Shown here: positions 18,834 to 60,290 of the stretch, one piece after another
Layout: the number at the start of each line of letters is the position of its first letter
Numbering within the stretch: the stretch's first letter is position 1
NCBI GenBank assembly: GCA_037974665.1
Contig: CM075768.1
Span: forward strand, 7,713,501-7,777,500
Origin: Ehretia macrophylla
Lineage: Eukaryota > Streptophyta > Magnoliopsida > Boraginales > Ehretiaceae
DNA: 64,000 bases
Direction: 5' to 3'
Notes under the pieces: model-generated
Databases searched by the model: none
Told to the model about the DNA's origin: nothing
Seen by the model: only the letters and a program-made list of their open reading frames with translations
Made by a program: the position numbers and the translations under genes

Positions 18834-19640
18834 AAAGAAAGATGGAAAGGAGCTGTAAAATCGTACTTGCCTCTTTGCACTCATCAATGCGGATGCTCAA
18901 GCTTCTGAGGATGTTGTGTCAGGTATCCTTCTTGTCATGACAACTTATGCACATGTGCTTGTGGATTCTGGCTCTAATTACTCATTTGTATCCCCTTCTT
19001 TTGCTAAATCATTTAACATTATGCCTACATTACGTGAACTAGAATTATGTGTAACAACTCCCCTAGGGAGATCAATTATGGTTAATGTAGAATATGAAAA
19101 TTGCCTAGTCTCAGTGGGTGATCGACAACTACCTACTGAGTTGATAGAGTTAGAAATGAAAGATTTTGACATAATCCTGGGCATGGATTGGTTAGTCGCC
19201 TATCATGGTCATATTAATTGTTTTGGGAAGAGGGTGATTTTCTATGTGCTCGGAGAAGCTGAATTTGAATTTGTTGGAAGAAAACAACAAGTGCCTAAGG
19301 TTATGTTGGCTTTGAAGGCTCAAAAAATGTTGGCCAAGGGATATAGTGCATTCTTATCAAATGTGGTGAGCACCAGGTCTAGTGAGCCAAAATTGGAAGA
19401 CATACTTATAGCATGTGAATTTCTCGACGTATTTTCTAAAGATATTCCAGGACTTCTTCCTGATATGGAGGTTGAATTCGAAATCAATTTAGTCCCTGGG
19501 ACGGGACCAATCTCTAAACTTCATTACCGCATGGCACCTGTAAAACTCATGGAATTGAAAATACAACTGCATGAGTTATTGGACAAAGGAAAAATTTGCC
19601 CTAATGATAACCTTGGGGTGCACCTATACTCTTTGTAAAA
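18834..19640 (+). pseudogene. Protease and RT start of element A
   Basis: The open run 18916-19638 holds the aspartic protease, with VDSGSNYSFVSPSFA (catalytic D-S-G) and IILGMDWLVAYHG. It then passes through the protease-RT linker ([29 protein letters not shown]) into the start of RT. The protease would cut the polyprotein. The frame shifts at about 19620 where a run of A follows CTTTGTAA; RT continues in the next frame. Confidence 0.85.
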
Positions 19641-20139
19641 AAAAAGATAGGAACATGCGCTTGTGCATTGATTATCGTGAGTTAAACAAGGCTACTATCA
19701 AGAATAGATACTTTTTACCAAGAATAGATGACTTGTTTGATCAATTACAAAGAGCCAATGTATTCTCAAAAATAGATTTAAGGTCAGTGTATCATCAGTT
19801 AAAGATTAAGGCTGAAGACATACCTAAGACGGCATTTAGAACAAGGTACAGGCATTATGAATTTGTTGTGATACCATTTGGATTAATGAACGCGCCAACT
19901 ACTTTCATGGATTTGATGAATAAAGTCTTCAAACCCTTTTTGGATCAATTTGTAGTAGTGTTCATAGATGATATACTTTTGTATTCCAAGGATCATGTAG
20001 AGCACAAGGCACATTTGAGAATGGTGTTACAAGTCCTAAGAGAGAAGAAACTATTTGCAAAACTTAAGAAGTACGAATTTTAGTTGTCAAAAGTTGCTTT
20101 CTTAGGACATATAATCTCAAAGAAAGGTGTGGCAGTAGA
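19571..20139 (+). pseudogene. RT domain of element A, first part
   Basis: It shows the usual gypsy RT boxes in order: [47 protein letters not shown], then [13 protein letters not shown] with the catalytic FIDD box. RT is interrupted right after GVAVD at 20139 by a composite LTR block and resumes at 23287 ([15 protein letters not shown]). A stop (TAG in place of TGG) lies near 20082. Confidence 0.9.
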
Positions 20140-23100
20140 TATGACACCATAACCCAAACATATAGTTATTTTATTAATTTGCATATATTTGTATGCATTA
20201 ATTGACATATTTATTGATTTACTTGCATTTGCCTCGTTTAACGTGCATTACGTTCATTCATGTGTATTTGTGTGTTTTAAATATCGTAGGCATTAATTAA
20301 ATTCTACGGATTTACAATAGCAAAAGTAATTTAGTGAAATTGTAACCGAATGGAAAACTAGCAATAGCATTTAGTTAGGAGGGCAAAGTAGTCAATTGGC
20401 TAACATAAAATCCTATCTACTAAAATAAAACAAACAACATATATCAGTCTCTACACATACATACACACAAAAGAAGAAAAGAAAAAAGAGAAAAAAAATA
20501 GGAAAAAAAGGAAAGAAGAAGAGGAATTGAGCCTTGTACATCCATGTTTACTTGCAATTCTTCCATTTTAGCAAATTGAAGATGAAGGATGAGGAGCTAG
20601 GGCCTAAGATTGCATATTTGAACTCGTCTTATCTTGTTCTACGTATCTACCGATTGTTTTTCACATTGTGGAACAAAAAAAAGTGAGGGCTATTTTCTAA
20701 AATTGAGTTTTAAAGTAAAGTTATTGGTTATATAACTACTTATATATGTTGTATATGCTTATATATTTTTATGATTCATGCTAGATAAGTTGTTTAGTGC
20801 ACTTTAATTGAATTTTAGTTAGATGGAAGTATGACTTGATGTAGATGTTGTATAAGTTGAGTTAAATGTTGTTAAGTGTGGTCGGAGTCGATTAATGTTA
20901 TGAAGTGGTTTTTCGGGCTTGTTGGGCTTATTTTAGATGGCTTTTGGGTTGCTCTTGTGGTGGTTTAGGTGCTTGCTTAAGTGGTTAAGTGATAGGAGAA
21001 GGTTCAGCGGTTGTTTGGTTGTTAAATTTTGAGTTATGTTGATTGAAAGTTGGGTTTATGTTACTTTGAATTACTTGAATGTTATCGTAGGTTGTCTTGC
21101 ATTGTTTGTGTGGTTGGAACTTGAGTTGGTATTAAGTAGGCTCGGGGTTGGTAAAATGTTGAAGTGTGTGTTGAGTTTGGATGATCTACTTTGTCATCTA
21201 ACTAAGTGTTTATAAGTGTTGAGTACTAATTGTTGAAGTGTTGAATTGTTGGTTGTAAATGTTGTAGTGTTGGGAGACAACCTACTTTGTTGTTCTCTCA
21301 GGATGTAAGTGTTAAGTGTTAAATGTTGTGAGGCATGATAGGGTTGTGTCACCTCGAGCGGTATTGGGCTTGCCAGGTTGCATTGACACGATTATCATGT
21401 TCTATCCCCTATCCCGCATGATCGGAGAATGTTCATGGGGTGTGGGTCTAGCTTGGGTACTTCCGGAATATATCAGTGGGAGAAATAAGAAGTTGGTTGA
21501 GTTCGTGACGACAGTATAAGGAGCTACATCAACAAGTGTTATTGTATCCTTATTGTTTGGTTACTTATATTGCTATATTTGAATTGTTGATGTTTGTTGT
21601 GCATTCATTGTTTCCAAGGGTGTTTTTGAAAGGTTTTTCACAAAAATGATTTCAAAACCTCCTATTGAACTCTTGCTGAGTTGGTGGAAACTCACCCTAT
21701 TTGCTAACCTTTCAGGTGAGCCTGAGTAGGAGCCAGTGTATGTGCCTCAGGAAGTTGAGGTTGAGCCTTATATGGATGAGTCATATATGCCAGAGCCTCA
21801 CCCTTGGGTGCTTGCTTGGATGTCTCACATGTTGTCTTAAGCTTATGTTTATGTTGTATTGTATCAAGTCTTGGAGTTTGTAATGTTGAAGTTTAATTTA
21901 AGTTAGTGGTTTGTATTTAATGCTAGCTTAGTTGGTTTATTTTGGTTATGTATATATTGATAAGCTAGCTTAGTAGTCGATTTTGAATATGTTTATTATG
22001 GTTTGTCGTAAATGGTTGATACGGAGGCATTATACTTTGTTTTAAATGTTGGTTGGTCAGAATATGAAATATTTTGGTTGCCTTGTGGTTTGTTGAAGTT
22101 ATTGTTGGATGTGGGTTGTTTGAAGTTGAACCGGTTTAGGGTTCTGTTGTCCATATTACAGATGTTATAATGTCGAAGTTCTGCCACGTCCTGACTTGAT
22201 CATAAGTGGGGTGGTGTTGGGGCGTGACACCTTTTACAATGAGTAAATCTTGTTCTTGTTATCGACTCTTAATTGATATATTCAAGTTATAGCTTGCTTA
22301 TTCCTATGTGCATTTATACATGCATAACATGTTTTATGAAATCATTTGTGAAAAGATCAAATGTTGAGAAAATTCCCTTCCTGGTAACCCTCATTGAGCT
22401 AGTCGTAGCTCACCCTTTTCTCTATCATTTCAGGAGAGATATCGAGGATTTCTGTCTTATGTGATCCTTGTTTGTTGATGTGATTGATGAACTACTTGAT
22501 ACACTAAACTTATTCTTTTGGACAATATTGATGTAACTAAATACTACTATTCTTTTAAGGCCTAGACACCTAAAGGTTGGTTAGATGTTAGGTTTGAACA
22601 GGTGATTCGAGGTTTTGTGAATATATAACTTGTTGATGTAACCTGTTATGGCCGATGACCTTGGTAGTACTTTTGGAAACTTTACAGATTATAAAATGGG
22701 TGTACAAGTTGTCAATTTATCAATTACAAGTTTTAAGTGTTACAAACATCATGTTTCGGCCTTAGCCTTCAAAAGTGTCCGGGTCGGGGCGTGACATATA
22801 TGCTTGTTGTAGATGTTTGTGTTGCTAAGGGTTGAAATTTGCATTATAATGGTGGCTTTGTTGGAATTATGTAAATATGTCTTAAGTTGTTTACTTTATG
22901 TTTGGAAGTTGTTAAGTTCTGAATCCATGTAAGTAAGTAATATGTATGCCTTACTTTAAAGTTGGTAGTAGATGGATTTGGTTGTATATGGCATATAAGC
23001 TTGGCCAAGTGTTTAAGCCTAAGCTCGGTAGTCTACATTGAACTTGTGTACCTTTATGTCTTTGTGTAAGATAGCCTGGACAACTGAATTTGTAGAGTTG

Positions 23101-26978: not shown

Positions 26979-29900
26979 TGTAACATCCGAGACTTTCATC
27001 ATATTCATAATTAACTGTTGCATACCTTCATGAGCATTGTAATGTGCATTTTCTTACTTTGAACGTTATTACTATTCACAATGAAAATTTGACTGTTTAA
27101 TTTGCTTTATTTTATATTTTTCCAAGGTTACATGACTCTTAAGATGAATGAGAAAAATGAGAACTTGAGCATTGTTTGCCGGGAACGCTCGTTAGGAAAA
27201 TAGCTTTGGTATCGTATGAATAGTAAAACATAGTGTAACATTGAAATTAGACTAGCTAGCATTTAATTGAACATTTAGACATTATGTTGAGCCTTGTCTT
27301 GCACCAATAGTAACTAAAATCCTACAACACTCAATATATAACATACATTTTACACCTAGCAACACATAAGCACACAAAACAAATAAAGAAATCTCCTTTA
27401 CTTGTAACCAAGAGTCCCCCCTACTCGACGGCAACCAAGAGAAGAAAAGGGAAAAATTTTACTTGCAATCTTCATCCTTTGGCTCAATCAAGTAATTCTT
27501 GGGTGATTTCAACTCCTTCCTAGCCTAACACTAGCATATCTCAAGCATTGAGGTGAGGGAATTTGCATTTTTGATCATTTAAAGTTTGTGATATGTTATG
27601 AAATTTCTTAGATTTGTTGTTTATAGCTTATGAATTGCTTGAATAATGCAAGTTACCTTTTTTACAGGCTATAGAGACCAAGTTTGTGTAATTTTGAAGC
27701 TTGTTAGATGGTTGAATACAAATGGTGTATTGTAGGAGATGATGAAGAGTGTCAAAGTTAGGGTTTTGTTAAAATTTGACTATAAGCTTGATTTTATGAT
27801 ATCTATAGATGCTATAGGTGTTAATGAAGATAGATTAATGATCGTATGTGATTAAATAGTTTGGAACTTAGGTAAAATTGCATAAATAACTTGATTTACA
27901 AAGGAGTTTCGGGTGAAATGCGAATCCGGGCAGATGTGAATGTTATATTTAGTGTTTATAGGGTGAGGTAGTGCTAAAAGTGCGGTTATGTTACCTAATT
28001 GAACATCAGTTAAGGTACTTATAGTTAAAACACATAAAGGGGCTTTCGGGATTTTTGCGGTAATTGCGGGTTAAAGGGTGGTTCCAAGGGTCCTATAGGT
28101 GTCTTAAAGTATCATTAGAAGAATTTAATAGCTTGTTTAAGAATCTTGAACCTCGTCCTTCGATTGTGAGTCAAATAGTGTTAGTAGGCAAATGAGACAT
28201 TTTGGACAATTGGTTCGTTTGAGTGTTTTGGTTGCTTATAGAGCTTCGTTCTGTTTGGTTAGTGGTTAATGAATGCTTAGAATGCTCGTAGTGTCCTTCT
28301 GTAGTTTGGAAGATAGCTATTTAATTGTAAATGCAAAAGGGGTCGTTTGACCAAGTATTGACCGTGCTCATTTTGAGTTGGGGGTTTGTCTTGTTTGTGC
28401 ATGGAAGTACTTTTAGCTCAATTGTGGCATTGATTAGATGTATGGTTAGTATAGCTGTAGTTCAAACGTGCTAAGTGGACTTTCGGAGTTCTGTTGGGAA
28501 AGTGAGATTTCGTAGCGTAGAATTGTGCCTAAGAAAGGGTAATGAAATCGGTTTTCCAATCTCGTAGCTCGTTTGGTTGTAAAAGCCTTTAGAAGTTAGA
28601 GTATGAATAAATGTTTTGATAATTTTCTTGCATTGAGTTAGTATTGCCTACTTAGTTATTGTTATTGTTGTTATTGTTGTTATTGGCCATGAATGACATC
28701 TATGAGATCTCTTGTGATAAGTATGTGTTCTATTATATGCTAAGTTTGAACCATTGAACCAATTCTCGCACCTTGGAGCTTGGTAGAGGTGATGGAGTCT
28801 TCATCCTTATGTGCATAAATAGTTTATTTTCTTGTTCATAGATTATGTGATGTAGTATAATTGTTAAAGTAGTGTGCTTATTGATTATATATTGTGTGTG
28901 AGGGCAACCTACTTTGTTGTCCCTCGATTATGTGATTATAGGTTATCTTATTTGTTATCATCTTAAGTGCATTGCATTGTGGTTGCGCAACCATTTGGGT
29001 ATGGTAATGTCGGGGAAGCTGGGCGGCATCGGGCTTGCCGGTATACCTCGGCTACCATGGTTATCTAGTCTTTCTCTTGCTTGGGATGCCGCCTAGGGAA
29101 AGTTGGGTCGTAGGATCGGGGTACATCTGGAGTACACCCATTTTGGAGTTATAAGGGATGCCGGCTTATCGTTATCATTATCATTATTATATTGGAATTT
29201 CTGTTTGTGGTTCGTGGTACGAGTTCAAGGTCTTCTGGTATTCCTTATTGTGTACTTCTCACTTGGACCATAAGTCCTTAGGGAGTTACCTTATATCCTT
29301 TTTATATGTACCTCTCGCTTGAGCACTAAGTCCTTGGAGAGTTACATTTGATAGTTATCTTTGTTGTGTTCTTTACTATGTTAAATAACTTGTATAATTG
29401 TATTGAGTGTTATATTGTTATTGTTACTTTTAGATTGCTTATTATAATTGTTCTATGGTGGTTTCCTATTGATAATCTGTTTATTGTTGACTATTGCATT
29501 GCATGAAACTATTTTCCAATCTCCCCAATTAAATGTTCCCTCCCTCATTGGGCATACGTGTTTTGTATGCTCGCTCCCTCTTTCTAACCATTTCAGGTTC
29601 GGTGCCTTTGGAGTGTAAGAAAAAGAAAGTTCGAGAGTCTATTTGAATAGATGTCCTAGCCGTAGTTAATCGTTTTATGTAAATTTGTGATAATTATGCT
29701 CTTTTGAGGCCTGCGTGCCTTGTGTATATATTTATTGTTGTAAGAATATAATAAGTAAAGGTTAACCTAGTATTTCGTCATGTAACAAATTAGAGATTTA
29801 CTTTATTGTCTAATTTGCTTGCATGCTTGTGTAAATTGAGATGGAAAATGATTGAAAGATTTAACCATTAAGTAGAGAGTATTAGAGTGGTAAGATAAGC

Positions 29901-30180
29901 GGATTTAAAACATAGAATTTCAATAGATTTGATTTTTGCATGCTTGTATGTTATATTGTCATGGACTAAGGCTCGGATGGCCTTAGTGTTGGGAAGGTTG
30001 CGTGGTTGAAGTTTGGAGTTGTTGAGAATGTTAAAGTATGTGGATTTGTGATTTTATCTTTTGTTTATAGGTATCCAGTTAGGCCTAGAAACAAGAGAAA
30101 CTCCGCCCGTTTTTTTTCATTTTTCGTGCCATGGGGTATTGGGTCGGGGCTTCAGTCTCGTGAGGGATCGGGGTGTTACA
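26979..30180 (+). mobile_element. Solo LTR I (gypsy type, 3202 bp)
   Basis: It starts TGTAACATCCGAG and ends GGATCGGGGTGTTACA. It sits inside a GGATAAATGCC repeat unit of element A. The flanks GTGGG (26974-26978) and GCGGG (30181-30185) form a 5-bp TSD with one C-to-T change; the 5' LTR shows the empty site GACGGCGGGGG near 11569. It has no internal region. It has the module hairpins: GAGGG...CCCTC with loop CTACTTT at 28900-28925, a hairpin around CATCGGGCTTGCCG at 29001-29058, and GGGCATAC/GTATGCTC at 29550-29572 followed by TTTCAGG at 29592-29597. Confidence 0.92.
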
Positions 30181-30971
30181 GCGGGGGATAAATGCCAATG
30201 TGTTCAGACCCTTAAAGGCGGGGGATAAATGCCAATGTGATAAGACCCTTTACGGCGGGGGATAAATGCCAATAATCGAGTAAGATACTATTCTTTTGAT
30301 TAAATTGCGCATATTGAATTCTATTTAGGCATACCCAATAGTAAGTAGATATAGTTGTCTCTCTGTGTGTTCTTTGAATCATAGATATTGTTATGGTACT
30401 TTAGAAAATTTTACAGTAGACATGACCAATTTTATTTATGTATGAACATCTAGTTTCCAAAATATGATACGACTTATCAAATAAAGAAATATGACTATAT
30501 GGATCATAGAAATATTTGATGTTCCAAGAAGTTTTCTTGGGGAAACGCTGCTTATTGAGATTTTTCTCTCATTCTTTAAAATGTTTTTTCCTCGCAGAAG
30601 GGGAGGAGTAGCCTTACGATTTTGACTGGGTAGTGACCTCCTAACGTAAGATTTGACTAGTCACTTGGATTGCTTAGCCATGGACATTGTCTTCCCTTTG
30701 TTTTTGATTGAGTATTTAATTTCATATGGTGGTTTGAGAAGTTTGTAAGAATCTTAATATTTGAAATTTTGTATTTCTTGACTTCGAATATTATTATTTC
30801 GCTGCATTTGGTTTAGACGCTCGGTTGGTTTGTAGTCTAATTAATATCGTGATTATTAGTTTGTTGGAAATTCAACGCCTTGCGTTCTTAAGAAGGACGT
30901 TCTTTCTTAATTCGTGGTATGTCACGCCTTATTAATAATAATAATAATAAAAAATTTGGAGGCGTTACACC

Positions 30972-33463
30972 TGTGACGCCCGAGATTTTAGCCGTACATT
31001 TATTTACTGTTGCATCTATTGTTTGCGCATTTCTTTCTGTGCCTTATTAATTGGCTTCTTTAGCTACTATTCATCCCATTTTCAAACTATATTATATTAG
31101 TGAATTAGCATTTTTATTAAATCACATTAATTGTTAGAGGAGTGAGAAAAATGTGCAATTGAGCTAGAGGCGATAGGAGAGCTCGTTTAGAAAATATTTT
31201 TAGTAGTTAAGTGAATAGTGTTACGTAACAAACTTAGAGATTTAAATAACTAACATTACTTTTCATCTTAGGCTCGTTTTTAAGTTAATAACACGCATTC
31301 TAGTGACCTTTTAAATACCCAAACTTGACCCCACCTCAACTTAATCTTATATAAATCACATAAGCTCATTAAAACACAAAAAAAAAAAAAAAAAAACAAT
31401 GTGCAGGAATTACTGTAGCAGGCCGAAAATACCAAAGGAGAAGGAAAAGAGCAGATTTTGCTTCAACAACCTTGCATCTTGAGCTCCTAGCTTGATCTTG
31501 GGAGGGTTTTGAGCATCCTAGGGCCTTCAACAAGCTTTCTTGTCTTCAAAAATTGTGAGGGAGATGCATTTCATTTCTTTTAAAGTTCATGCTCTTATGT
31601 TGAATTTTCTTGATTTGTTGATATTAGCTATATAACTTGTTATGAATGCTTCCTATGAGTTATTTAATGTCTCTAGAGCTAACTTTTGAGGTTTGCTAAC
31701 ATAGTTAATGGTTGAATGTTGAATTTGATCAAAGAGGTGATGAATAGTGCCTAGAATTAGGGTTTTGAGAAAATTTACTAATTGGCTTGAATTGATGCCT
31801 CAATTAGGTGCTCTAGACCTTAGGGAAGTTAGTTGAAAAGCCACGTTAGGTTGAAACACTCGAATTTGAACTTAATTGCATAATAAGCTTACTTTAAAAA
31901 GGGGGTTTTATACGTTAAGCAATCTGGGCAAATTTGGGCATCGATTTGGGTATCCTTGAGCTAAGGAAGCACCTTTGGTGCTTTTGTTTTGCGAAATTGG
32001 GGTTCGGTTAGTATGACTATAGTTCAACCCCGTTCGGGGCCTTCCCGAACTTTTGCTTCAAAAATGAGTTTTAGTGACTTTAAAGGGTACCTTTGAGCTT
32101 AATTAGGAATATAGAAAGACTAGGGTATGATTGGGAATCTCGAACCATGCTTAGGAGAAAGAAAGCTCGGCTAAAGAAAGGGAAAATGTAGTGTTTAGAC
32201 ATTTTAGTTGCATTTGAAACTTGTTGTGTGTTAGTAATACCTTGCATTGATTATTTAAGATGTATTTAAGTTATTTGAGTAGATTATTGGAATTAGTTGT
32301 GTTGATTGTTACTTTTGGTATCTTAAATTTAATATCGTGCATATATGCGAGGGCGGCCTACTTTGTCGTCCCTCTTACGTGTTATGTGTTATAATGATTG
32401 TTTGTGACTTGTATTGGGTTGCGCAACCTAAATCGGACATGGTAGCGTCGAGAAACACGGGCGGCGTCGGGTTTGCCGTGCTCCCTCGACTACCATGGTG
32501 CCTATTCCCTTTCTCGCTGAGGCATACTCCACTACCCCAGAGGCGTGGTTCACCTGCTGGGCATGGACCTACCTCGGGAGAAAGGGTCGTAGGATCGGGA
32601 TACATCCGGAGTATCCCAATTGTTGGTGTTTGGGGTTTGCCGGCATGTTCGTGATGCTCGTGGTTCGTGGCTCGTGAATGAAGACTTGGAAGTGGAACCG
32701 TATCCTTTTTAAAAGTGATTAATTGCTTGGCTTATTATCTTGTTGATTTACATGGCTTATATATGTTTTCTTGTGTTTGCATATCATATTGCACGTTGGC
32801 ATGTTGCATCACCTCCCTCACTGGGCAACTTCGTTGCTCACTCCTCATTTAATATGTTTCAGGAGAACTTGAGGTAGACCTTCAGCTAGTAGCGGTAGTA
32901 GAAGAGGAGGAAGTGCTAGTTAAGCAATTTCTGTGACTTCTTGTGTGATAAGGTTGTCTAAAATGAGAAGCTTGCGTGGAGTTGTTGTTGATTGCCTTTT
33001 TGTGACCTTGGGGTCTTGAGTATAATTGGTGAATGTAATAATTTGTAATCTTGTATGTTGGATATAAAGTGGAATGACATGTAATAATCCATAGTAAACT
33101 TATTCTTTTGCATGCTTGTGTGATTAACAAACTTGGAAGTAGAACTTGGCTATTTTTGTATCTAACTACCTATAGTTAAAATTAGAAATGCTTTGCTTGC
33201 TTGTGTGTTATATGTAATTGTTGTTCCAAGGCTCGGATGGCCTTGTGATCGCGGGTGGCCCATAAAAATCTTAGAGGATTGGTTGTAAGAGTTGCTGTTT
33301 GTAGATCTAGCATCATAGGTGTCTTTTGCAGGTACCAGTTTAGTCCTATAAACAGGGGAGACTCCGTCTGTTTTCCCCTAAAATTTTGAGTCCGGGTTGG
33401 AATTGGGTTGTGATTAGTATGGTTAATAGAAGTCACAGTTCCGTGAGGAATCGGGGCGTTACA
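30972..33463 (+). mobile_element. Element G, LTR copy 1
   Basis: A TATA box (TATATAAA) lies at 31348-31355. The module hairpins lie at 32349-32374 (GAGGG...CCCTC around CTACTTT), 32438-32497 (arms CATGGTAG and CTACCATG) and 32823-32839 (GGGCAAC TTC GTTGCTC), followed by TTTCAGG at 32858-32864. The short open frames at 32337-32677 fall in this hairpin region and repeat in all copies; I do not regard them as genes. Confidence 0.92.
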
Positions 33464-34052
33464 GAAGTGGTATCAGAGCTTAGCTAGTTAGCTAGGCGCA
33501 AGCCGGGATAGGGTCTTCGGCTTGTGGGGTAGTGGCCTTAGTGTCAATGTGTTTAGAAAGTGTATGTGCATGTCTTATGTGATAAGAGAGTTAATGTGAT
33601 CAATGTGCTTAAGTGATCAACATGTTTTATTTGTTGAATGAACTAGTTGTGATTTATGTGCTTGTGTGATAAGTGAAATGGATGTGGTTAACGTGCTTGA
33701 TGTGTTTATATGTTCAATGTGTTTATGTGATTAATGCGAGCTATGTGATTAACGTGCCTTGTGTGAATTATGTGCTTTGTGTACTTGAGTGCTCGATGTG
33801 CTTTATATGACTAATGTGAGTATGTGATTAACTTGTTTTATGTGAAGTTGTTGTTTAAATGACTTAGTAGTTTATAATTTGTGTATGTGAACTTGTTGCT
33901 TATGTGACTTTACTTGTTATAAATTACTAACGTGATCAATGTGTTTTATGTGTTAAGCATGCTTATGTGAAACAATGTGTTTTATGTATGAGGGTAACTC
34001 GCTTGTATGTGTAAGAAATTGCGTGGACGCAATTTGTTTAAGGGGGAGAGGA
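33464..34052 (+). mobile_element. Element G, internal region 1 (589 bp, noncoding)
   Basis: It begins with PBS TGGTATCAGAGC (33468-33479) and ends with polypurine tract AGGGGGAGAGGA (34041-34052). In between there are many variants of TGTGATTAATGTG and GTGCTTATGTG, without a coding frame. The same kind of words occur in the leader of element H. Confidence 0.9.
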
Positions 34053-36545
34053 TGTGACGCCCGAGATTTTAGCCGTACATTTATTTACTATTGCATCTAT
34101 TGTTTGCGCATTTCTTTCTGTGCCTTATTAATTGGCTTCTTTAGCTACTATCCATCCCATTTTCAAACTATATTCTATTAGTGAATTAGCATTTTTATTA
34201 AATCACATTAATTGTTAGAGGAGTGGGAAAAATGTGCAATTGAGCTAGAGGCAATAGGAGAGCTCGTTTAGAAAATGTTTTTAGTAGTTAAGTGAATAGT
34301 GTTACGTAACAAACTTAGAGATTTAAATAACTAACATTACTTTTCATCTTAGGCTCGTTTTTAAGTTAATAACGCGCATTCTAGTGACCTTTTAAATACC
34401 CAAACTTGACCCCACCTCAACTTAATCTTATATAAATCACATAAGCTCATTAAAACACACAAAAAAAAAACAAAAAAAACAATGTGCAGGAATTACTGTA
34501 GCAGGCCGAAAATACCAAAGGAGAAGGAAAAGAGCAGATTTTGCTTCAACAACCTTGCATCTTGAGCTCCTAGCTTGATCTTGGGAGGGTTTTGAGCATC
34601 CTAGGGCCTTCAACAAGCTTCCTTGTCTTCAAAAATTGTGAGGGAGATGCATTTCATTTCTTTTAAAGTTCATGCTCTTATGTTGAATTTTCTTGATTTG
34701 TTGATATTAGCTATATAACTTGTTATGAATGCTTCCTATGAGTTATTTAATGTCTCTAGAGCTAACTTTTGAGGTTTGCTAACATAGTTAATGGTTGAAT
34801 GTTGAACTTGATCAAAGAGGTGATGAATAGTGCCTAGAATTAGGGTTTTGAGAAAATTTACTAATTGGCTTGAATTGATGCCTCAATTAGGTGCTCTAGA
34901 CCTTAGGGAAGTTATTTGAAAAGCCACGTTAGGTTGAAACACTCGAATTTGAACTTAATTGCATAATAAGCTTACTTTAAAAAGGGGGTTTTATACGTTA
35001 AGCAATCCGGGCAAATTTGGGCATTGATTTGGGTATCCTTGAGCTAAGGAAGCACCTTTGGTGCTTTCGTTTCGCGAAATTGGGGTTCGGTTAGTATGGC
35101 TATAGTTCAAACCCGTTCGGGGCCTTCCCGAACTTTTGCTTCAAAAATGAGTTTTAGTGACTTTAAAGGGTACCTTTGAGCTTAATTAGGAATATAGAAA
35201 GACTAGGGTATGATTGGGAATCTCGAACCATGCTTAGGAGAAAGAAAGCTCGGCTAAAGAAAGGGGAAATGTAGTGTTTAGACATTTTAGTTGCATTTGA
35301 AACTTGTTGTGTGTTAGTAATACCTTGCATTGATTATTTAAGATGTATTTAAGTTATTTGAGTAGATTATTGGAATTAGTTGTGTTGATTGTTACTTTTG
35401 GTATCTTAAATTTAATATCGTGCATATATGCGAGGGCGGCCTACTTTGTCGTCCCTCTTACGTGTTATGTGTTATAATGATTGTTTGTGACTTGTATTGG
35501 GTTGCGCAACCTAAATCGGACATGGTAGCGTCGAGAAACACGGGCGGCGTCGGGCTTGCCGTGCTCCCTCGACTACCATGGTGCCTATTCCCTTTCTCGC
35601 TGAGGCATACTCCACTACCCCAGAGGCGTGGTTCACCTGCTGGGCATGGACCTACCTCGGGAGAAAGGGTCGTAGGATCGGGATACATCCGGAGTATCCC
35701 AATTGTTGGTGTTTGGGGTTTGCCGGCATGTTCGTGATGCTCGTGGTTCGTGGCTCGTGAATGAAGACTTGGAAGTGGAACCGTATCCTTTTTAAAAGTG
35801 ATTAATTGCTTGGCTTATTATCTTGTTGATTTACATGGCTTATATATGTTTTCTTGTGTTTGCATATCATATTGCACGTTGGCATGTTGCATCACCTCCC
35901 TCACTGGGCAACTTCGTTGCTCACTCCTCATTTAATATGTTTCAGGAGAACTTGAGGTAGACCTTCAGCTAGTAGCGGTAGTAGAAGAGGAGGAAGTGCT
36001 AGTTAAGCAATTTCTGTGACTTCTTGTGTGATAAGGTTGTCTAAAATGAGAAGCTTGCGTGGAGTTGTTGTTGATTGCCTTTTTGTGACCTTGGGGTCTT
36101 GAGTATAATTGGTGAATGTAATAATTTGTAATCTTGTATGTTGGATATAAAGTGGAATGACATGTAATAATCCATAGTAAACTTATTCTTTTGCATGTTT
36201 GTGTGATTAACAAACTTGGAAGTAGAACTTGGCTATTATTGTTTCTAATTACCTATAGTTAAAATTAGAAATGCTTTGCTTGCTTGTGTGTTATATGTAA
36301 TTGTTGTTCCAAGGCTCGGATGGCCTTGTGATCGCGGGTGGCCCATAAAAATCTTGGAGGATTGGTTGTAAGAGTTGCTGTTTGTGGATCTAGCATCATA
36401 GGTGTCTTTTGTAGGTACCAGTTAGTCCTATAAACAGGGGAGACTCCGTCTGTTTTCCCCTAAAATTTTGAGTCCGGGTTGGAATTGGGTTGTAATTAGT
36501 ATGGTTAATAGAAGTCTCGGTTCCGTGAGGAATCGGGGCGTTACA
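34053..36545 (+). mobile_element. Element G, LTR copy 2
   Basis: 2493 bp with TATA box at 34429-34436. The hairpins repeat about 3081-3083 bp downstream of those in copy 1 (the second starts at 35521). Differences from copy 1 are sparse. Confidence 0.92.
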
Positions 36546-37134
36546 GAAGTGGTATCAGAGCTTAGCTAGTTAGCTAGGCGCAAGCCGGGATAGGGTATTC
36601 GGCTTGTAGGGTAGTGGCCTTAGTGTCAATGTGTTTAGAAAGTGTATGTGCATGTCTTATGTGATAAGAGAGTTAATGTGATCAATGTGCTTATGTGATC
36701 AACATGTTTTATTTGTTGAGTGAACTAGTTGTGATTTATGTGCTTGTGTGATAAGTGAAATGGATGTGGTTAACGTGCTTAATGTGTTTATATGTTCAAT
36801 GTGTTTATGTGATTAATGCGAGCTATGTGATTAACGTGCCTTGTGTGAATTATGTGCTTTGTGTACTTGAGTGCTCGATGTGCTTTATATGACTAATGTG
36901 AGTATGTGATTAACTTGTTTTATGTGAAGTTGTTGTTTAAATGACTTAGTAGTTTATAATTTGTGTATGTGAACTTGTTGCTTATGTGACTTTACTTGTT
37001 ATAAATTACTAACGTGATCAATGTGTTTTATGTGTTAAGCATGCTTATGTGAAACAATGTGTTTTATGTATGAGGGTAACTCGCTTGTATGTGTAAGAAA
37101 TTGCGTGGACGCAATTTGTTTAAGGGGGAGAGGA
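36546..37134 (+). mobile_element. Element G, internal region 2 (589 bp, noncoding)
   Basis: PBS at 36550-36561 and polypurine tract at 37123-37134. It has the same length as region 1 and differs from it by only a few bases. Confidence 0.9.
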
Positions 37135-39628
37135 TGTGACGCCCGAGATTTTAGCCGTACATTTATTTACTGTTGCATCTATTGTTTGCGCATTTCTTTC
37201 TGTGCCTTATTAATTGGCTTCTTTAGCTACTATTCATCCCATTTTCAAACTATATTCTATTAGTGAATTAGCATTTTTATTAAATCACATTAATTGTTAG
37301 AGGAGTGTGAAAAATGTGCAATTGAGCTAGAGGCGATAGGAGAGCTCGTTTAGAAAATGTTTTTAGTAGTTAAGTGAATAGTGTTACGTAACAAACTTAG
37401 AGATTTAAATAACTAACATTACTTTTCATCTTAGGCTCGTTTTTAAGTTAATAACACGCATTCTAGTGACCTTTTAAATACCCAAACTTGACCCCACCTT
37501 AACTTAATCTTATATAAATCACATAAGCTCATTAAAACACACAAAAAAAAAAAAAAAAAACAATGTGCAGGAATTACTGTAGCAGGCCGAAAATACCAAA
37601 GGAGAAGGAAAAGAGCAGATTTTGCTTCAACATCCTTGCATCTTGAGCTCCTAGCTTGATCTTGGGAGGGTTTTGAGCTTCCTAGGGCCTTTAACAAGCT
37701 TCCTTGTCTTCAAAAATTGTGAGGGAGATGCATTTCATTTCTTTTAAAGTTCATGCTCTTATGTTGAATTTTCTTGATTTGTTGATATTAGCTATATAAC
37801 TTGTTATGAATGCTTCCTATGAGTTATTTAATGTCTCTAGAGCTAACTTTTGAGGTTTGCTAACATAGTTAATGGTTGAATGTTGAATTTGATTAAAGAG
37901 GTGATGAATAGTGCCTAGAATTAGGGTTTTGAGAAAATTTACTAATTGGCTTGAATTGATGCCTCAATTAGGTGCTCTAGACCTTAGGGAAGTTAGTTGA
38001 AAAGCCACGTTAGGTTGAAACACTCGAATTTGAACTTAATTGCATAATAAGCTTACTTTAAAAAGGGGGTTTTATACGTTAAGCAATCAGGGCAAATTTG
38101 GGCATCGATTTGGGTATCCTTGAGCTAAGGAAGCACCTTTGGTGCTTTCGTTTTGCGAAATTGGGGTTCGGTTAGTATGACTATAGTTCAAACCCGTTCG
38201 GGGCCTTCCCGAACTTTTGCTTCAAAAATGAGTTTTAGTGACTTTAAAGGGTACCTTTGAGCTTAATTAGGAATATAGAAAGACTAGGGTATGATTGGGA
38301 ATCTCGAACCATGCTTAGGAGAAAGAAAGCTCGGCTAAAGAAAGGGGAAATGTAGTGTTTAGACATTTTAGTTGCATTTGAAACTTGTTGTGTGTTAGTA
38401 ATACCTTGCATTGATTATTTAAGATGTATTTAAGTTATTTTAGTAGATTATTGGAATTAGTTGTGTTGATTGTTACTTTTGGTATCTTAAAGTTAATATC
38501 GTGCAGATAGGAGAGGGCGGCCTACTTTGTCGTCCCTCTTACGTGTTATGTGTTATAATGATTGTTTGTGACTTGGAATGGGTTGCGCAACCTAAATCGG
38601 ACATGGTAGCGTCGAGAAACACGGGCGGCGCCGGGCTTGCTGTACTCCCTCGACTACCATGGTGCCTATTCCCTTTCTCGCTGAGGCATACTCCACTACC
38701 CCAGAGGCGTGGTTCACCTGCTGGGCATGGACCTACCTCGGGAGAAAGGGTCGTAGGATCGGGATACATCCGGAGTATCCCAATTGTTGGTGTTTGGGGT
38801 TTGCCGGCATGTTCGTGATGCTCGTGGTTCGTGGCTCGTGAATGAAGACTTGGAAGTGGAACCGTATCCTTTTTAAAAGTGATTAATTGCTTGGCTTATT
38901 ATCTTGTTGATTTACATGGCTTATATATGTTTTCTTGTGTTTGCATATCATATTGCACGTTGGCATGTTGCATCACCTCCCTCACTGGGCAACTTCGTTG
39001 CTCACTCCTCATTTAATATGTTTCAGGAGAACTTGAGGTAGACCTTCAGCTAGTAGCGGTAGTAGAAGAGGAGGAAGTGCTAGTTAAGCAATTTCTGTGA
39101 CTTCTTGTGTGATAAGGTTGTCTAAAATGAGAAGCTTGCGTGGAGTTGTTGTTGATTGCCTTTTTGTGACCTTGGGGTCTTGAGTATAATTGGTGAATGT
39201 AATAATTTGTAATCTTGTATGTTGGATATAAAGTGGAATGACATATAATAATCCATAGTAAACTTATTCTTTTGCATGCTTGTGTGATTAACAAACTTGG
39301 AAGTAGAACTTGGCTATTGTTGTATCTAACTATCTATAGTTAAAATTAGAAATGTTTTGCTTGCATGTGTGTTATATGCAATTGTTGTTCCATGGCTCGG
39401 ATGGCCTTGTGATCGCGGGTGGCCTATAAAAATCTTAGAGGATTGGTTGTAAGAGTTGCTGTTTGTGGATCTAGCATCATGGGTGTCTTTGTGCAGGTAC
39501 CAGTTTAGTCCTATAAACAGGGGAGACTCCGTCTGTTTTCCCCTAAAATTTTGAGTCCGGGTTGGAATTGGGTTGTGATTAGTATGGTTAATAGAAGTCT
39601 TGGTTCCGTGAGGAATCGGGGCGTTACA
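37135..39628 (+). mobile_element. Element G, LTR copy 3
   Basis: 2494 bp with TATA box at 37511-37518. It carries slightly more private changes than copies 1 and 2 (for example GTGCAGATAGGAGAGGG near 38500, where the others read GTGCATATATGCGAGGG). It ends GGGGCGTTACA at 39628. Confidence 0.92.
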
Positions 39629-41394: not shown

Positions 41395-41729
41395 GGCTAT
41401 TCTCAATGGAGTCTCTAAAATATAAATTTTTTTTAATTTGGGTATTTTTAGAGACCTCAGTCTCTAAAAATAATACTATTCATGACAAAAGTACGTAAAA
41501 TCCACCACTTTTGACTTAAAAGATACCAATATAGAAATCCAGTCTCTATTTTTTTCAATAAATTTGTAAAATAAAATAGAGAATGAGTCTCTATTTTAAC
41601 ATTTTTTAAATTAAAAGTGGTAGACTCTATGTACTTTTATCATAAATAATATTATTTTTAGAAATTAAAATCTCTAAAAATATCTAAATTAAAAAAAAAT
41701 TATATTTAAACACTCCATTAAATATGCCC
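41395..41729. mobile_element. MITE (335 bp) in the WSS1B-like upstream region
   Basis: The two halves are long imperfect inverted repeats of about 125 bp (left GGCTATTCTCAATGGAGT, right complement GGGCATATTTAATGGAGTG). They share TTTTTAGAGA...TCTCTAAAAATAATA blocks. TAA flanks both sides (41392-41394 and 41730-41732), which fits a PIF/Harbinger (Tourist-like) MITE. Its transcript could fold into a long hairpin. It ends about 190 bp before the TATA box. Confidence 0.85.
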
Positions 41730-44066: not shown

Positions 44067-47000
44067 ATGCAGCAAGAAGGTGTCATGAGCTTTTCTGTTA
44101 TATGGAGGGGAAAGAAGTTTGTTCTGGAGATGAATCCTAGTGCTACTCTAAAAGAATTGGGAAATGAATTACAAAAGCAAACCAATGTCAGAACTGATAC
44201 TATGCGACTGATTGTTTCTACGCATAAAAATTCGAAAATGCTTTACCCTTTTGCTGAAGAGCACTCTTGTCTTAGCTTGGAGGCAGCATCCATCCTTGAG
44301 GTTCCACAACTTTACATTTGTTCAACAATATAGCAATAACTTTGTGATGTCAATTTCTTAATATGCTCTTAACTCAAATAATCTTTGGAAAGTGTACATA
44401 CTTGGAATCTGCAAGCATGACAAATTGAGTTCTCCATAGCTTTTGCTTCTTTTCTGTTTACTGATGGAATAGTTCTAGAAAATTGTCTTCCTCAAGTATT
44501 GTTGATGTCTGAAATTTTTTTGCTAAGGTGACTTCCACTCACTTTGATAATTATGGTATCTGTAAATCAATACACTACAAGAAAGTGAGAGTCCTAAATG
44601 GCTTCATGCTGTTGTTGCACATGTCTTTACTTTTGACGGTAATTTCCCCTCTATCGTCCAACCGCTGCCACTCTCTTCTCCTCTCTGCATCTAACTTGTA
44701 CCCCATTTGGTGGAAAAGCATCTGAAGAAATAATGTCTTTCTTATTCAAAAATTCATTATCTTAACTTTATGAGATGAATTTTTTTTGCTTTTCCACATT
44801 TTCATTAAATTTTCATCTTTGGCACATGCATCGTGAGTGCAGCAGTAGCTACTTATAATTATAAATGATGATGATTGCCTGCCTCTGTGTCTAAACATTT
44901 ACTTTGGGATTTGTGAAGCACAATTTTGTTAGCAAACTTTCTGATCTCTGATGATGCCTACCTTCCTATTCTCTGCTGAAAGTATTTTATCTTTAGTAGA
45001 AGTGAGTCTTTTGTTTTGTCATATCGATATAGGGAATTTGTTTTGTGAGAATAACAGCAATTTGAAGTGAAGTTTCATCGAGTAACCTCGATGATCTCTT
45101 AGAATTTTACCCCCTTCTTTCCAAATTGAATATGGTACTTTTTATTTTGCGGCACCTTAAAATGATCTTCAGATACAGTGTCCCATAGTACAAGACTGAA
45201 GATCATTTTTTCGAGGAAAAAAAGAAAATTGTTCTTCAGTCTTGTACTATGGGACACTGTATCTGTTAGAGTTCCAACTCTTTATCTTTTTTTGGATGAT
45301 TCAGTGAATTTTATTGCCAAAAACAAACACAATAACAAGGACATTGGGAACCAATTACATGAAGGGTCACAGACCATACAATCGTAAAAAAATTATGACA
45401 GTTGAAAGAGAATCAAATGAACAGACGATAAAAACAAAAAAAAACAAGAAAGAAAAGGTAAAAACAGTTAAGTAAGCCAAACAGCCCGTGTGTCTGGCGG
45501 AGCCAGTTTTCCATTAACAAAATCTTGAATATCTTGGGAAAGCTTGCTCAACACTGTTTTTCCGTCTTTCTTGTTCTGAAACTTTGAGGGTTCTCCCCTC
45601 TCCATGTTTTGAAACGCTGGTAAAAATTTACTTTGAGTACACGGTGCCAACTTTTTGCGAGATGCATTAATCGGAGGGACCGAGATAAGTTTGCTTTCGC
45701 TGTTAACCACAGCAGGTAATTCAACCTTGTCAATGTTGGTAGTGACAATTCCTTGGACCTGTTCATCTGGACTTAAAACCTCAAACTGGTTGTTACTCTG
45801 TCCTTTGGCCTGACCTGTTCATCTGAACTTAAAACCTCAGAATTGAATATCATCTGTTATTTTCGTTATGAGCCAGCTAATGTTTTGCTCCTCTAAAACA
45901 CTCCAGGAGGATGCTTTAGATGAACTTGAAAAAAATATGTCGGGGAAAATTTATCTTGCTTTTTGTTTTCAGGGAAAATCTATTAGGATGATGGGAGTGC
46001 CTCAAGATGAGGTGGATGAAGTGCTACGAAATGCAAAAGTAGACCACAGAATAGCTGGATTTGATGAAGAGGAAAAAAGAATGCGGAAGAGGATGTTACA
46101 GGGGCAACAACTACTGCAACTTCCGCGAGGAACTTATATCTTCTGTGATTTTCAGACACTTCATATTCCAGGAATAGAGGTATTGCTTATTAGTAACTTT
46201 ACTACATTATTTTTGTGGTCTTCGCCACCAATCTTCACTTCTTCATTCTTCTAATGTCAAAGTACAAGAGAGACTTCTGCTTTCTAGGTTAGAATCCTCA
46301 AAGCTGGAAGAAACCCATTAGGAAGAATGGTGATAATTTTGTAGTCATGGGTTTACTCTGCAATGATGAAGCTGAAATCTTTGAAGATGAGATTTAACTA
46401 GAGATGAAATATTTTGGTGGTTAGACATATTCACAATGAATCTGACATTTTATGTGCATGTTTAAGTGATAGAGGAATAAGCTAATGATTCATTTCTTGG
46501 CTGCTTTATGGCCTTGACAATATTCTTAGCAAGTTGGTTTTGTATCTTGTATCTTTTTGGCATAACTGGAAGAGAGTGTAGTTCACACCAAGATATGATG
46601 GTATTTTCTGTGTTGTATGAAAAACAGAACTAGTATTTCCATTGAGATAGAAAAACCCCACTTGATGATTGATTATTCAGGTAATTATGGTTTGAGTGAG
46701 ACCTTGCAGGACTCAGGCATATGCATGTGGTTTCCTTTATTTAGGTTTCTTTTTTCTTCTGTGTGCATGTTGGGGTTGCATTGGGCTGTGAGGTGTCATG
46801 TGGAGAAATTTGATTATATTAGCCTTCTGTGGATTGTTTACTGACCTAGTTGTGGCATTGTTGTAGTTGAATCCTCCTGCTTCAGAGGCTTTAAAATTGA
46901 TGCATAGACTTGCTGCAGATCCAGGAATCGTGGCAATTATGAATAAGGTATTGTCGGGCAATATTTTTCTGCTAGAGGAACAATAATGTAATATTGTGCA

Positions 47001-50000
47001 CATTTTTCATCAATTTGACAAATGTCTTTTATGGGCTTCTGTAAGCATCGCTGGCGAGTGGGGATTATGACTGAGATGGCACCAGTTGGTTATGTTGGTG
47101 TGAGTCCTAAATGCATCCTTGGTTTTAACAAGGTGAGAATTGAAATGATTAAATACCTGGTTCTTACACTAAGTTCTATACTCTGTTTCTTTTGCTATTA
47201 CTTCTTTTCATTTTCATTTTGTACTTAAATATAGCTTCTTTGCCTTCTTTTTTCTTTTTCTTGACCTTATAATCTGGGGCCACATGTAGAACCATGGAGA
47301 AGAGATATCATTGCGTCTTCGAACTGATGATCTCAGGGGTTTTAGGAAGTACGAGAGAATCAAGATGACTCTTCTACATGAACTTGTAAGACCCGCTTCT
47401 TCTACCCCATTCCCTTCTCTTGACTTGTTGAGCGTTTAAGACCAGAAACTGATTGCTAGAAGTACTAATTTTATTTTTATTTATTTCCCAGGCACACATG
47501 GTACACTCTGAACATGATGAAAACTTCCATGCTCTAGATAAACAGGTAAGCAGTTCCCCTTCCTCTCCCCTCTTTCTCCCATGATCTTCTTTTTCTCTTT
47601 TATCGACAACCATGGCACTTGCAATGGCTACGCCGATCTGAACATGTCAAGCAACTGGAATCAGATTTCTTAGGAAAATAAATATATAGGTGGCTAATTT
47701 GCATAACACTTTATGAGACATGAAAAAGCTGGGATTCCTCTAGAAATAATCCCCATGATTCTCATAAGTGGTTACTCTAATTATGCTAACTCATAATTTT
47801 GAGCAGAAATAAGCATATATACTTTATTTATTCAGAAACACAGTGCTTGAAAACATATCAAGCTTTAGATTGCAAGGAGAAGAGGAAAAACAATAAAAGA
47901 AGGAAGATATTGTATTTAGACATTCTCTTTCCCGATTCTAAAACATATTGGTATTTTGTTATTCATGAATACTACAGAGTTAAAGGAAAAATGTATATAT
48001 CTTAGTAAGTCACAAAAGAATTTGTATGTCAAAATTATATATAATGTTAAAGCTTGCAAGGAGAAGAGGAAAAACAAGAAAAGAAAGAAGATATTGTATT
48101 TAGACATTCTCTTTCCGATTCTAAAACATATCGGTATATTGTTATTTATGAATAGTACAGAGTTAAAGGGAAAATGTATATATCTTAGTAAGTCGCAAAA
48201 GAATTTGTATGCCAAAATTATATATAGTGTCCCAAATTTATCTCTTCCCTGTTGGAGCTATCATTTGTCATAATCACCATTCAAAGTTTGCTAGTCTGTT
48301 GGTAGAGGAGTAAATGTTCTGGCTACCTAACCGAATTCATTAATTTGGCCCCAGAAAGAGATACTATAGATGTGAAGTGTTATTTCTAAGCATGTAATGA
48401 TAACGTCTTTTAAAGGAAGGGAACTGCCTCTTTCGGTTGTGAAAGCCATTTTTTTCATGATCTTTGTTTTTGGACTGATGGCTCTCGTAAAGTTGGTGTT
48501 GATAGTATTCAAGATTGTTTAGATACTTTGCATAGTTGATGTAAATAGCAAGTATCGTTAGGTGCGTTACATAGTGTAAATACTTTTGGGTTGCACCCGC
48601 TTGGTGCATTTTAATAAAATTTTCACTTCTCAAAAGAAAATAAATGATAACATCTGCTCATACCTGGCAGCAAGTGGACTTCATTTTCCATTTAAAACAG
48701 AAGAAAAGAGAAGCTAAAACGACGACTTACATGAGAGGAAACAAACCAACTTCAGAAAAATATGAGGAAACAAACCGACTTCAAAAACATATCTAAATCA
48801 CTCTTTTCATCTCTCCTAGCCTTCTTTCTTTATATCATTTGAATCTGATACTGCTTTTCTGAAACATATAGAATAGAAAAGGAACAAAGGAGAAAGAGAA
48901 TAGAAAAGGAAAAAAGGAGAAAGAAAATAGAAAAACTTAGGTATCTAAACTGAACCAATTAAATCAAGCCTTATCGTTGATCCAACGAAGTTTCTGATTC
49001 CTGTCAAGAGTCATTTTCTTGATTAGCTTCATGCTTGTAAGATTTTGTTTATCTTAACCAACTGATTTTAGGTTTCACTCTAATGCTTAATAGTGAGCAA
49101 CCTCCATACCTTGATAATTTTTCACATTTGCCATCTTAAGTATCCTCTTTAACATGTCTACAACATCTCCAATGGTGCTTTTTCATCTCGTCCTCAACTG
49201 GATCAGACCTATTTTTCATTGAATCACACTAATTTTTATATTGTCCTACCTAAACATCCATCTTATTATTCTACTCCTGATCATACATTCTACCCTTGAC
49301 CACTAATGCGGACATCTTTTGAGCATGTTGGTAGTTTGCTGCCCTATTTTCCAATCTATACAGCACAGCTGGTGAGCTGGTCTTATGGTTGTCTTATAAT
49401 GAAGGGTAATTTCTAATACTACAAGAATCCTAATGCGCTTTTCCGTTTCGTAGCTTTAATTTTTTGATTTGGATCTGCATCAATCTCTCCATTTGACCAT
49501 GGCCGCAAGGTATTTAGAGTTTTCTACTTGGGTTTTTTTATAACCTGTTTGACTTCCACCTCAATCTTCGACCTATTCTTGCTAAAGTTGCATTCTGTAT
49601 ATTCCACCTTTGATTTACTCAGGGCTTAATTGTAGACACTCTCATGTAATGTTAACTTAGTATTCACATTTCTAAACTCATCCATTAATATCTGCACTTG
49701 TTTGGAACTAGAGCAAAAAGATATGGGTTCAGGACTGATCCTTGGTGTAGGCCTATTGTGATTGTAAACACACTAATACACGTCATATGTTTGTCATACG
49801 TGTTTGTTATCACTTCGCTAAGTGCCACACATACTCCCTTCTTCTCTAAAACTCCTCATATGACCTCTCTAGCAATTCGGTCATATGACTTTAGCTACCA
49901 TGTGTATATAGTTCTGGTTCTCCCAGTATTGCTTCATCCCTTAGAGAAAAATATAGCTTCAATAGTAGATTTTCTAGGCATGAAACTGAACCCGTTATTT

Positions 50001-59707: not shown

Positions 59708-60290
59708 GACCAGGGTCATCCCTTTACACCCTATTTTTTTTTATAGACATGTAACATAGCGAGCCTCAGAGAAACTTATTTCCAATACTAAACTTAAGAA
59801 ACAATTACCAATACTCCAAGTCAGTACTATACAAAACTCTTTAATCTTTTAAAATTCTTCATTTTTCCTTTCTTACCTTTATTCATTTAAATCAATAAAT
59901 TACACACTCCAATTGGACCAACCATTACACATATTTTATCATAAAATTTGCACATCTTAAAGGAAGACATGATTGCATATATACAAAACTTAGGAAAGGA
60001 GGACCAGGGTCATCCCTTTACACCCAATAATTTTATAGACATGTAACATAGCGAGCCTCAGAGAAACTTATTTCCAATATTAAACTTAAGAAACAATTAC
60101 CAATACTCCAAGTCAGTACTATACAAAACTCTTTAATCCTTTAAAATTCTTCATTTTTCCTTTCTTACCTTTATTCATTTAAATTAATAAATTACACACT
60201 CCAATTGGACCAACCATTACACATATTTTATCATAAAATTTGCACATCTTAAAGGAAGACATAATTGCATATATACAAAACTTAGGCAAG
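59708..60290. repeat. 294-bp tandem duplication
   Basis: GACCAGGGTCATCCCTTTAC begins at 59708 and at 60002, and the two copies stay alike through CATATATACAAAACTTAGG with only a few differences. No coding content is recognised. Confidence 0.92.

Follow-up and report, generated by a model that had tools for sequence, protein, structure and literature searches.

Long terminal repeat families of the window and the hairpins that they share

The DNA analyzed here is a 64,000-nucleotide stretch of contig CM075768.1 from Ehretia macrophylla (the window), which is plant DNA rich in long terminal repeat (LTR) elements; the named relatives of a pol piece within it are plant proteins. A set of hairpins recurs in the LTRs of five families, here designated G, I, B, F, and H, and that these are conserved hairpins with covarying stems is well supported. 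An earlier note on this DNA had named three inverted repeats in these LTRs, and part of the set in an LTR fragment, E: all three are present in G (three copies), I, B, F, and H, and the third is present in E. A further hairpin that was absent from the earlier note (hairpin 4) occurs in G, I, and H, with a remnant in F. All counts refer to five LTR families and one fragment in a single window.

30972-33463, 34053-36545, 37135-39628: LTR G, three tandem copies (G1, G2, G3), 98.4-98.7% identical
26979-30177: LTR I
~12080-14471: LTR B
20140-22229: LTR F
7251-5086, minus strand: LTR H
~22230-22797: LTR fragment E

Identity in aligned pieces is 59-76% between G and I and 59-65% among B, F, and H, and the internal part downstream of G is matched by sequence after H. 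Judged from these alignments, LTRs G, I, B, F, and H are homologous and hold the module in common by descent of one LTR; therefore, the families do not count as independent origins of the module. Element G has the features of an LTR retrotransposon, including the termini TGTGACGCC..CGTTACA, a primer site adjoining the LTR (TGGTATCAGAGC, which we take to match the initiator tRNA), and a 5-bp target duplication (ACACC) on both sides of the element. By their termini and primer site, these LTRs presumably belong to the Tekay/Del lineage. The internal parts between the G copies are ~590 bp, and the element lacks any frame of at least 150 amino acids. The whole G array (30972-39628) is arranged as LTR-internal-LTR-internal-LTR with a period of ~3082 bp and has one ACACC duplication, at its two outer ends; such an arrangement would be expected if a short non-autonomous element had undergone unequal recombination. 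LTR B (12079-14471), flanked on each side by TTGTC, resembles a solo LTR inserted in a repeat whose other copy lies at 30178-30969. A retrotransposon pol piece (18859-20083; RVP_2, RVT_1) is cut off at the start of LTR F; we refer to the elements as being of Ty3/gypsy type, with the proviso that this piece, which has protease and reverse transcriptase domains only, may belong to another element.

The hairpins are listed below in their order along the LTRs.

32349-32374 (G1), 35432-35457 (G2), 38513-38538 (G3), plus strand: hairpin 1 of LTR G, loop CTACTTT
28899-28926, plus strand: hairpin 1 of LTR I
13446-13476, plus strand: hairpin 1 of LTR B, first copy, absent from the earlier note
13548-13578, plus strand: hairpin 1 of LTR B, second copy
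21174-21203, plus strand: hairpin 1 of LTR F, first copy, absent from the earlier note
21271-21300, plus strand: hairpin 1 of LTR F, second copy
5987-6015, minus strand: hairpin 1 of LTR H
32417-32428 (G1), 35500 (G2), 38581 (G3), 28981-28992 (I), plus strand: 12-nt perfect palindrome GGTTGCGCAACC between hairpins 1 and 2
32438-32497 (G1), 35521-35580 (G2), 38602-38661 (G3), plus strand: hairpin 2 of LTR G, stem CATGGTAG/CTACCATG, apex loop around TCGGG
29000-29059, plus strand: hairpin 2 of LTR I
13613-13675, plus strand: hairpin 2 of LTR B
21333-21400, plus strand: hairpin 2 of LTR F
5845-5905, minus strand: hairpin 2 of LTR H
32597-32617 (G1), 35680-35700 (G2), 38761-38781 (G3), plus strand: hairpin 4 of LTR G, GGGATAC-ATCCGGA-GTATCCC, loop with the palindrome TCCGGA
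29118-29139, plus strand: hairpin 4 of LTR I, GGGGTAC/GTACaCCC, one bulged A
5766-5786, minus strand: hairpin 4 of LTR H, GATGTAC-ATCCGGA-GTACATC
21455-21471, plus strand: hairpin 4 remnant of LTR F, with palindrome TTCCGGAA retained and little of the stem left
32823-32839 (G1), 35906-35922 (G2), 38987-39003 (G3), plus strand: hairpin 3 of LTR G
29550-29572, plus strand: hairpin 3 of LTR I
13948-13971, plus strand: hairpin 3 of LTR B
21678-21693, plus strand: hairpin 3 of LTR F, which forms in one fold, a wider stretch giving a firmer alternative fold
5555-5570, minus strand: hairpin 3 of LTR H
22395-22412, plus strand: hairpin 3 of fragment E, followed by TTTCAG|G

The loops or flanks of the hairpins had been described as fixed. 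This applies to the loop of hairpin 1, a constancy that partly reflects how the copies were first found (via the word CTACTTT), and nearly so to the loops of hairpins 2 and 4. The loop of hairpin 3 varies, and it is the stem base and flank that are kept; the flank reported before this stem, CCYTCAYTG, is present in G (three copies), I, and E, and absent in B, F, and H. Similarly, the apex given for hairpin 2, GGCGTCGGGCTTGCCG, is exact in G2 and inexact elsewhere.

The stems of hairpin 4 surround ATCYGGA in G, H, and I. The 7-nt loop contains the 6-nt palindrome UCCGGA in G and H, the remnant in F has an 8-nt palindrome (UUCCGGAA), and the loop of I has UCUGGA, which self-pairs through G-U. 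With G-U counted, the loop is thus self-complementary in all four families that have the hairpin or its remnant; a random hexamer is self-complementary in 1.6% of cases strictly and in 5.3% with G-U.

Near the 3' end of the LTR, another hairpin, AAGGC-TCGGATG-GCCTT, is present at 33227-33245 and 36310-36328 (exact in G1 and G2) and at 29966-29986 in I; its outer pair is C-G in G, and T-A plus C-G in I.

Covariation and folding of the hairpins

The stems differ between families while their pairing is kept, as the earlier note had claimed. Changes on both sides of a pair are found in five of nine pairs of stem 1, in 6/21 of stem 2, in 3/7 of stem 3, and in three of the seven pairs of hairpin 4 (four sequences); the counts for hairpins 2 and 3 are rough, the underlying alignments placing the F stem loosely (A2) and misplacing the I stem (A3). 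For hairpin 1, 82.5% of the alignment cells are paired, vs. 72.1% in shuffled alignments (reached by 1/500 shuffles), and 12 cells are changed on both sides, vs. 4.8 (also 1/500). The covariation score of this hairpin was equaled by one of 500 shuffles, and the number of pair types was not above that of the shuffles; related sequences can exceed shuffles without structure. When the partner is slid by 1-3 columns, the paired cells drop to 44-67%. In the apical part of hairpin 2, the changes in G3 are one-sided, one of them apparently leaving a G-U pair and another breaking an outer pair.

In arm-swap tests, hardly any exchanged set of arms folds as well as the native one. The native set ranks 3rd of 5040 for hairpin 1 (3rd of 120 with one hairpin per family), 1st, 2nd, and 2nd of 120 for hairpin 2 at three arm lengths, 2nd of 720 for hairpin 3, and 3rd of 24 for hairpin 4, for which F does not form the hairpin. 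None of 13 control anchors was in the top 5% (ranks 5/24 to 117/120), several of these anchors being the first occurrence of a short word rather than homologous sites. Of eight slid positions around hairpin 1, seven gave ranks of 18-90 of 120, and the +60 position gave a rank of 2/120, perhaps because it meets the palindrome GGTTGCGCAACC of G and I. These tests carry the shared ancestry of the LTRs within them.

When G and I are left out of the training set, the covariance models place their copies directly after the training sequences. A hairpin 1 model built from B, F, and H only finds, after its five training sequences, I (E-value 2.5e-7) and the G copies (2.8e-5 to 4.5e-5), with the first match beyond these at 0.079; a hairpin 3 model built from B, F, H, and E finds the three G copies (1.8e-4), then I (0.081), then a match at 0.54. 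The hairpin 1 model from seven sequences recovers nine places in the window at E-values of 6.2e-7 or below, including two G copies outside the training set and the upstream second copies in B and F, and its next match is at 0.31 or above. Much of the score in the held-out models comes from the kept loops and flanks; the models show that the module is recognizable, and do not by themselves show folding. Among 34-nt windows of single LTRs, the ten lowest z-scores include hairpin 1 (G, I, B twice, F twice, H) and hairpin 3 (G, I, B); hairpin 4 is outside the ten lowest, and hairpin 2 is longer than such windows.

The interpretation given in the earlier note is partly supported as a whole; its attribution of this pattern to selection on RNA structure is supported by the both-side changes in four stems (hairpin 4 with only four sequences), the arm swaps, and the held-out models. 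The least probable of the explanations that we consider dispenses with selection, the hairpins being chance inverted repeats inherited from one ancestral LTR. The homology of the LTRs, the restriction to five families and a fragment, the modest energy z-scores, and the rank of 2/120 for one of eight slid controls are all compatible with such inheritance, but the stems of hairpins 1 and 4 are divergent and yet pair around a kept loop, and swapping the arms mostly weakens the fold.

The inverted repeats could alternatively act as DNA, as palindromes that are bound by proteins or are prone to cruciform formation or small-RNA production. Perfect palindromes are present (GGTTGCGCAACC and TCCGGA, for example), and three of the four hairpin 4 copies fold better in the antisense strand. 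Nevertheless, we regard a role as DNA as very unlikely: across the hairpins, the summed fold energy is -286 kcal/mol in sense vs. -226 kcal/mol in antisense, 14 of 22 hairpins are firmer in sense (seven in antisense, with one tie), and 35 of 258 pairs in the sense strand are G-U. The support for RNA from this sense excess is modest, because the sense strand is G+T-rich, which itself favors sense folds. No Rfam family, hammerhead included, reached threshold in a search of the whole window, and for one LTR (31300-33463) the best Rfam score was 21.9 bits against a threshold of 80 (E-value 0.18).

A candidate leader intron around the module

The earlier note had placed the module in the transcript leader or the 3' end, with a TATA box ~1 kb upstream in each G copy. 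That distance holds for G, and is about 0.7-1.6 kb in the other LTRs; the location can be narrowed to the interval from a GTGAGRG resembling a splice donor to a CAG|G resembling an acceptor, motifs that the note did not mention and that bracket the module in all five full LTRs. From these sequences, a leader intron of 1.0-2.0 kb is plausible.

31347-31357, plus strand: TATA box of LTR G, copy 1
31555-32862, plus strand: candidate leader intron of LTR G, copy 1, GTGAGGG...TTTCAG, 1308 nt, holding all hairpins, donor weak
27553-29596, plus strand: candidate leader intron of LTR I, 2044 nt
12836-13995, plus strand: candidate leader intron of LTR B, 1160 nt
20683-21715, plus strand: candidate leader intron of LTR F, 1033 nt
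5533-6674, minus strand: candidate leader intron of LTR H, 1142 nt

GTGAGRG lies downstream of a TATA-like box in 5/5 LTRs, at 207 (G), 218 (I), 229 (B), 244 (F), and 219 nt (H); the box in F is a loose ATATATC. The motif occurs 21 times in the window on both strands, and seven of these occurrences are the candidate LTR donors. At the other end, CAG|G ends 21-24 nt after hairpin 3 in all six families, E included. The sequence is A-rich before the donor (A 0.32-0.41) and T-rich after it (T 0.36-0.40), compared with T 0.24-0.33 in exon 1; plant introns are described as U-rich in the available part of one source (PMC3735527). All five full LTRs thus combine GT..AG ends at kept positions with a plant-like composition. 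Scored with a rough matrix, the candidate donors obtain -1.1 (G), 4.6 (I), 4.9 (B), 1.0 (F), and 4.8 (H), and are the best of 266, 213, and 181 sense GT sites in I, B, and H, respectively; the candidate acceptors rank 2/152 (G), 4/194 (I), 3/127 (B), 2/125 (F), and 5/119 (H).

With the start site assumed to lie 30 nt after the TATA box, ATG occurs five times in 962 nt of exon 1, 188 times in 6687 nt of intron, and 82 times in 2619 nt of exon 2, and two of the five first exons lack ATG. We considered the depletion of ATG in exon 1 as proof of a leader and set it aside: five are observed against summed shuffle means of 10.7, and no single LTR is significant, so that the support is weak. A coding exon after the acceptor was likewise rejected as the principal interpretation, there being no common start (two of five first exons are without ATG) and the open lengths not being rare by chance. 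An open reading frame of 15-29 codons does follow the acceptor in the same phase in five of the six families (starts at 32863, 29597, 13996, 21716, 5532 on the minus strand, and 22434), that of F stopping after four codons; it is acidic and repetitive in B and H.

Packaging and dimerization as a proposed function

We infer packaging and dimerization roles for the module, by which it would serve as a packaging and dimerization structure within the leader intron, carried only by unspliced genomic RNA; we give this reading a probability of roughly 0.37. The module would be a structured RNA element in the transcribed part of the LTR, downstream of the promoter. Gag would recognize unspliced genomic RNA by these hairpins, and two genomes would pair by loop-loop contact through the UCCGGA loop of hairpin 4. 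Spliced RNA would lose the module and go to translation, and only unspliced RNA would be copied, such that the LTRs retain both the intron and the module. These would also be kept by non-autonomous relatives such as G, for packaging by the proteins of others.

Packaging and dimerization are suggested because the module lies between the candidate donor and acceptor, and so would be held only by unspliced RNA; because hairpins 1 and 4 retain their loops although the stems drift, as for protein or loop contacts; and because the loop of hairpin 4 holds a palindrome. Copying of spliced RNA would yield new LTRs without the intron; the five families keep the candidate intron. Retention of the module in G, which lacks any frame of at least 150 amino acids, is consistent with a signal recognized by proteins of other elements. 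More broadly, the leader intron in LTRs of plant Ty3/gypsy elements might hold a multi-hairpin packaging and kissing-loop signal common to autonomous and non-autonomous families, with splicing sorting translated from packaged RNA, which would explain the mobilization of the latter families; we consider this generalization doubtful.

Alternatively, the hairpins could control splicing of the leader intron, hairpin 3 lying before the acceptor and, with the others, keeping splicing inefficient and so sparing unspliced genomic RNA. The distance from hairpin 3 to the end of CAG is 21-24 nt in 6/6 families, the hairpins lie inside the candidate intron, and the sequence after the acceptor seems by eye to be GAG/GAA-rich. 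Such control is unlikely, given that hairpins 1, 2, and 4 are hundreds of bases from either splice site in most LTRs, and that the kept loops of 1 and 4 suggest binding or loop-loop contact instead.

Several results weigh against the packaging and dimerization reading. Splicing control explains hairpin 3 as well or better. Hairpin 4, on which dimerization would depend, was not seen in LTR B and is mostly lost in F; its pair result was matched by 98 of 500 shuffles (four sequences) and alone is not significant. The hairpin 2 apex stretches of I and H self-pair with an energy (-4.1) about equal to that of the hairpin 4 loop in I (-4.2), and therefore the palindrome signal is clear only in G, H, and F. 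With regard to covariation, the RNAalifold term is small for hairpin 2 (-0.4) and hairpin 3 (+0.08), the number of both-side-changed pairs in hairpin 1 was equaled by 94/500 shuffles, and the +60 rank among the slid positions of hairpin 1 tells against a clean control. Unshared windows of single LTRs also fold with z-scores as low or lower.

For the intron, the candidate donor ranks only 8/209 in F and 31/177 in G. The best antisense donor scores (G 5.6, I 5.4, B 3.1, F 4.1, H 5.6) are above those of the candidates except in B, and therefore donor strength alone proves nothing. Each of the five LTRs also has acceptors that score better than the candidate; in G, I, and H these lie close to the end of the LTR. 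Furthermore, exon 2 is as ATG-rich as the intron, and therefore the leader would still contain upstream starts after splicing.

The weak donor of G, and antisense GT sites that score as high as the candidates, also favor there being no intron, the module then being a leader structure of full-length RNA (for export, ribosome shunting, or translation) or controlling polyadenylation in the 3' LTR; a structured leader for RNA export is described for plant pararetroviruses in the part of the source available (PMC12786077). We judge this quite improbable, since the positions of GTGAGRG and CAG|G are kept at only ~60% LTR identity and the donor is the best sense GT site in I, B, and H.

Other features of the window

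Outside the LTRs and the pol piece, the following were observed.

41405-41719: self-complementary, ~315 bp (79%), foldback-like or resembling a miniature inverted-repeat transposable element (MITE)
45170-45265: self-complementary, 96 bp (82%), foldback or MITE-like
47867-48230: tandem duplication of ~181 bp (93%)
52052-53059: open frame of 335 amino acids in which EPDPDD blocks recur, without a Pfam match, possibly an exon of a host gene
56516-57872, minus strand: pieces of a MULE transposase and SWIM zinc-finger
59708-60293: tandem duplication of ~294 bp (96%)

Comparison with known systems, and significance

In retroviruses, the packaging and dimerization region (psi/DIS) lies downstream of the major splice donor. 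The module resembles psi/DIS in comprising several hairpins in the presumed leader, one with a palindromic loop, located after a donor-like site, which would confine them to unspliced RNA; it differs in that the acceptor-like site and the module are both within the LTR, the host is a plant, and the packaging role is a proposed one. In the yeast element Ty3, the dimer site PAL6 is a 6-nt palindrome (CUGCAG); the apical hairpin that contains it lies close to the 5' end of the genomic RNA (PMC11381356). The elements described here, probably of Ty3/gypsy type like Ty3, likewise have a 6-nt palindrome in an apical hairpin, a likeness by description; unlike the module, PAL6 is apparently in the GAG frame, and no intron is mentioned in the available part of that source (PMC11381356).

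Splicing has been described for the plant LTR retrotransposons BARE1, Ogre, CRR, Bagy2, and EVADE (PMC3735527, PMC12786077), and for Tyran and Varan of sunflower (PMC7730604). As far as the accessible portions of these sources go, the spliced and unspliced RNAs of those elements have separate roles in translation and replication, similar to what we propose, although splicing is only a candidate here; their introns are in or between coding regions, and an LTR leader intron with conserved hairpins is not mentioned. According to the part available of a 2025 review, plant LTR elements are generally without introns, with few exceptions (PMC12786077). Stem-loops have been given as the reason for conserved stretches in the long R regions of retroviral LTRs (PMC3601003); as presented in the portion available, that argument concerns retroviruses, and its chromovirus model comprises fungal and fish elements.

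Among the literature titles listed, none concerned such a module or an LTR leader intron, which is weak evidence of absence, as most subscription journals fall outside the coverage. Pattern scans for relatives gave no match in viral contigs, and the plasmid collection had no match. In genome contigs, one scan was without match and the other gave four bacterial contigs, whose matches were inspected by eye and taken as chance. Viral contigs scanned with a protease/reverse transcriptase alignment yielded 19 pattern stretches, none of which was a relative.

Retrozymes are non-autonomous plant elements whose LTRs contain hammerhead ribozymes. The module is likewise a structured RNA that non-autonomous plant elements have within their LTRs; it is dissimilar in that no Rfam family is found at threshold.

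LTR retrotransposons make up much of many plant genomes and, to our knowledge, the signals by which they are packaged and dimerized are hardly known. Covariance searches, structure probing, and dimerization assays could be aimed directly at the hairpin set with its kept loops. The module would help to explain how elements that lack genes are copied by others, and an LTR leader intron, if true, would add a new kind to the few cases of introns in plant LTR elements.

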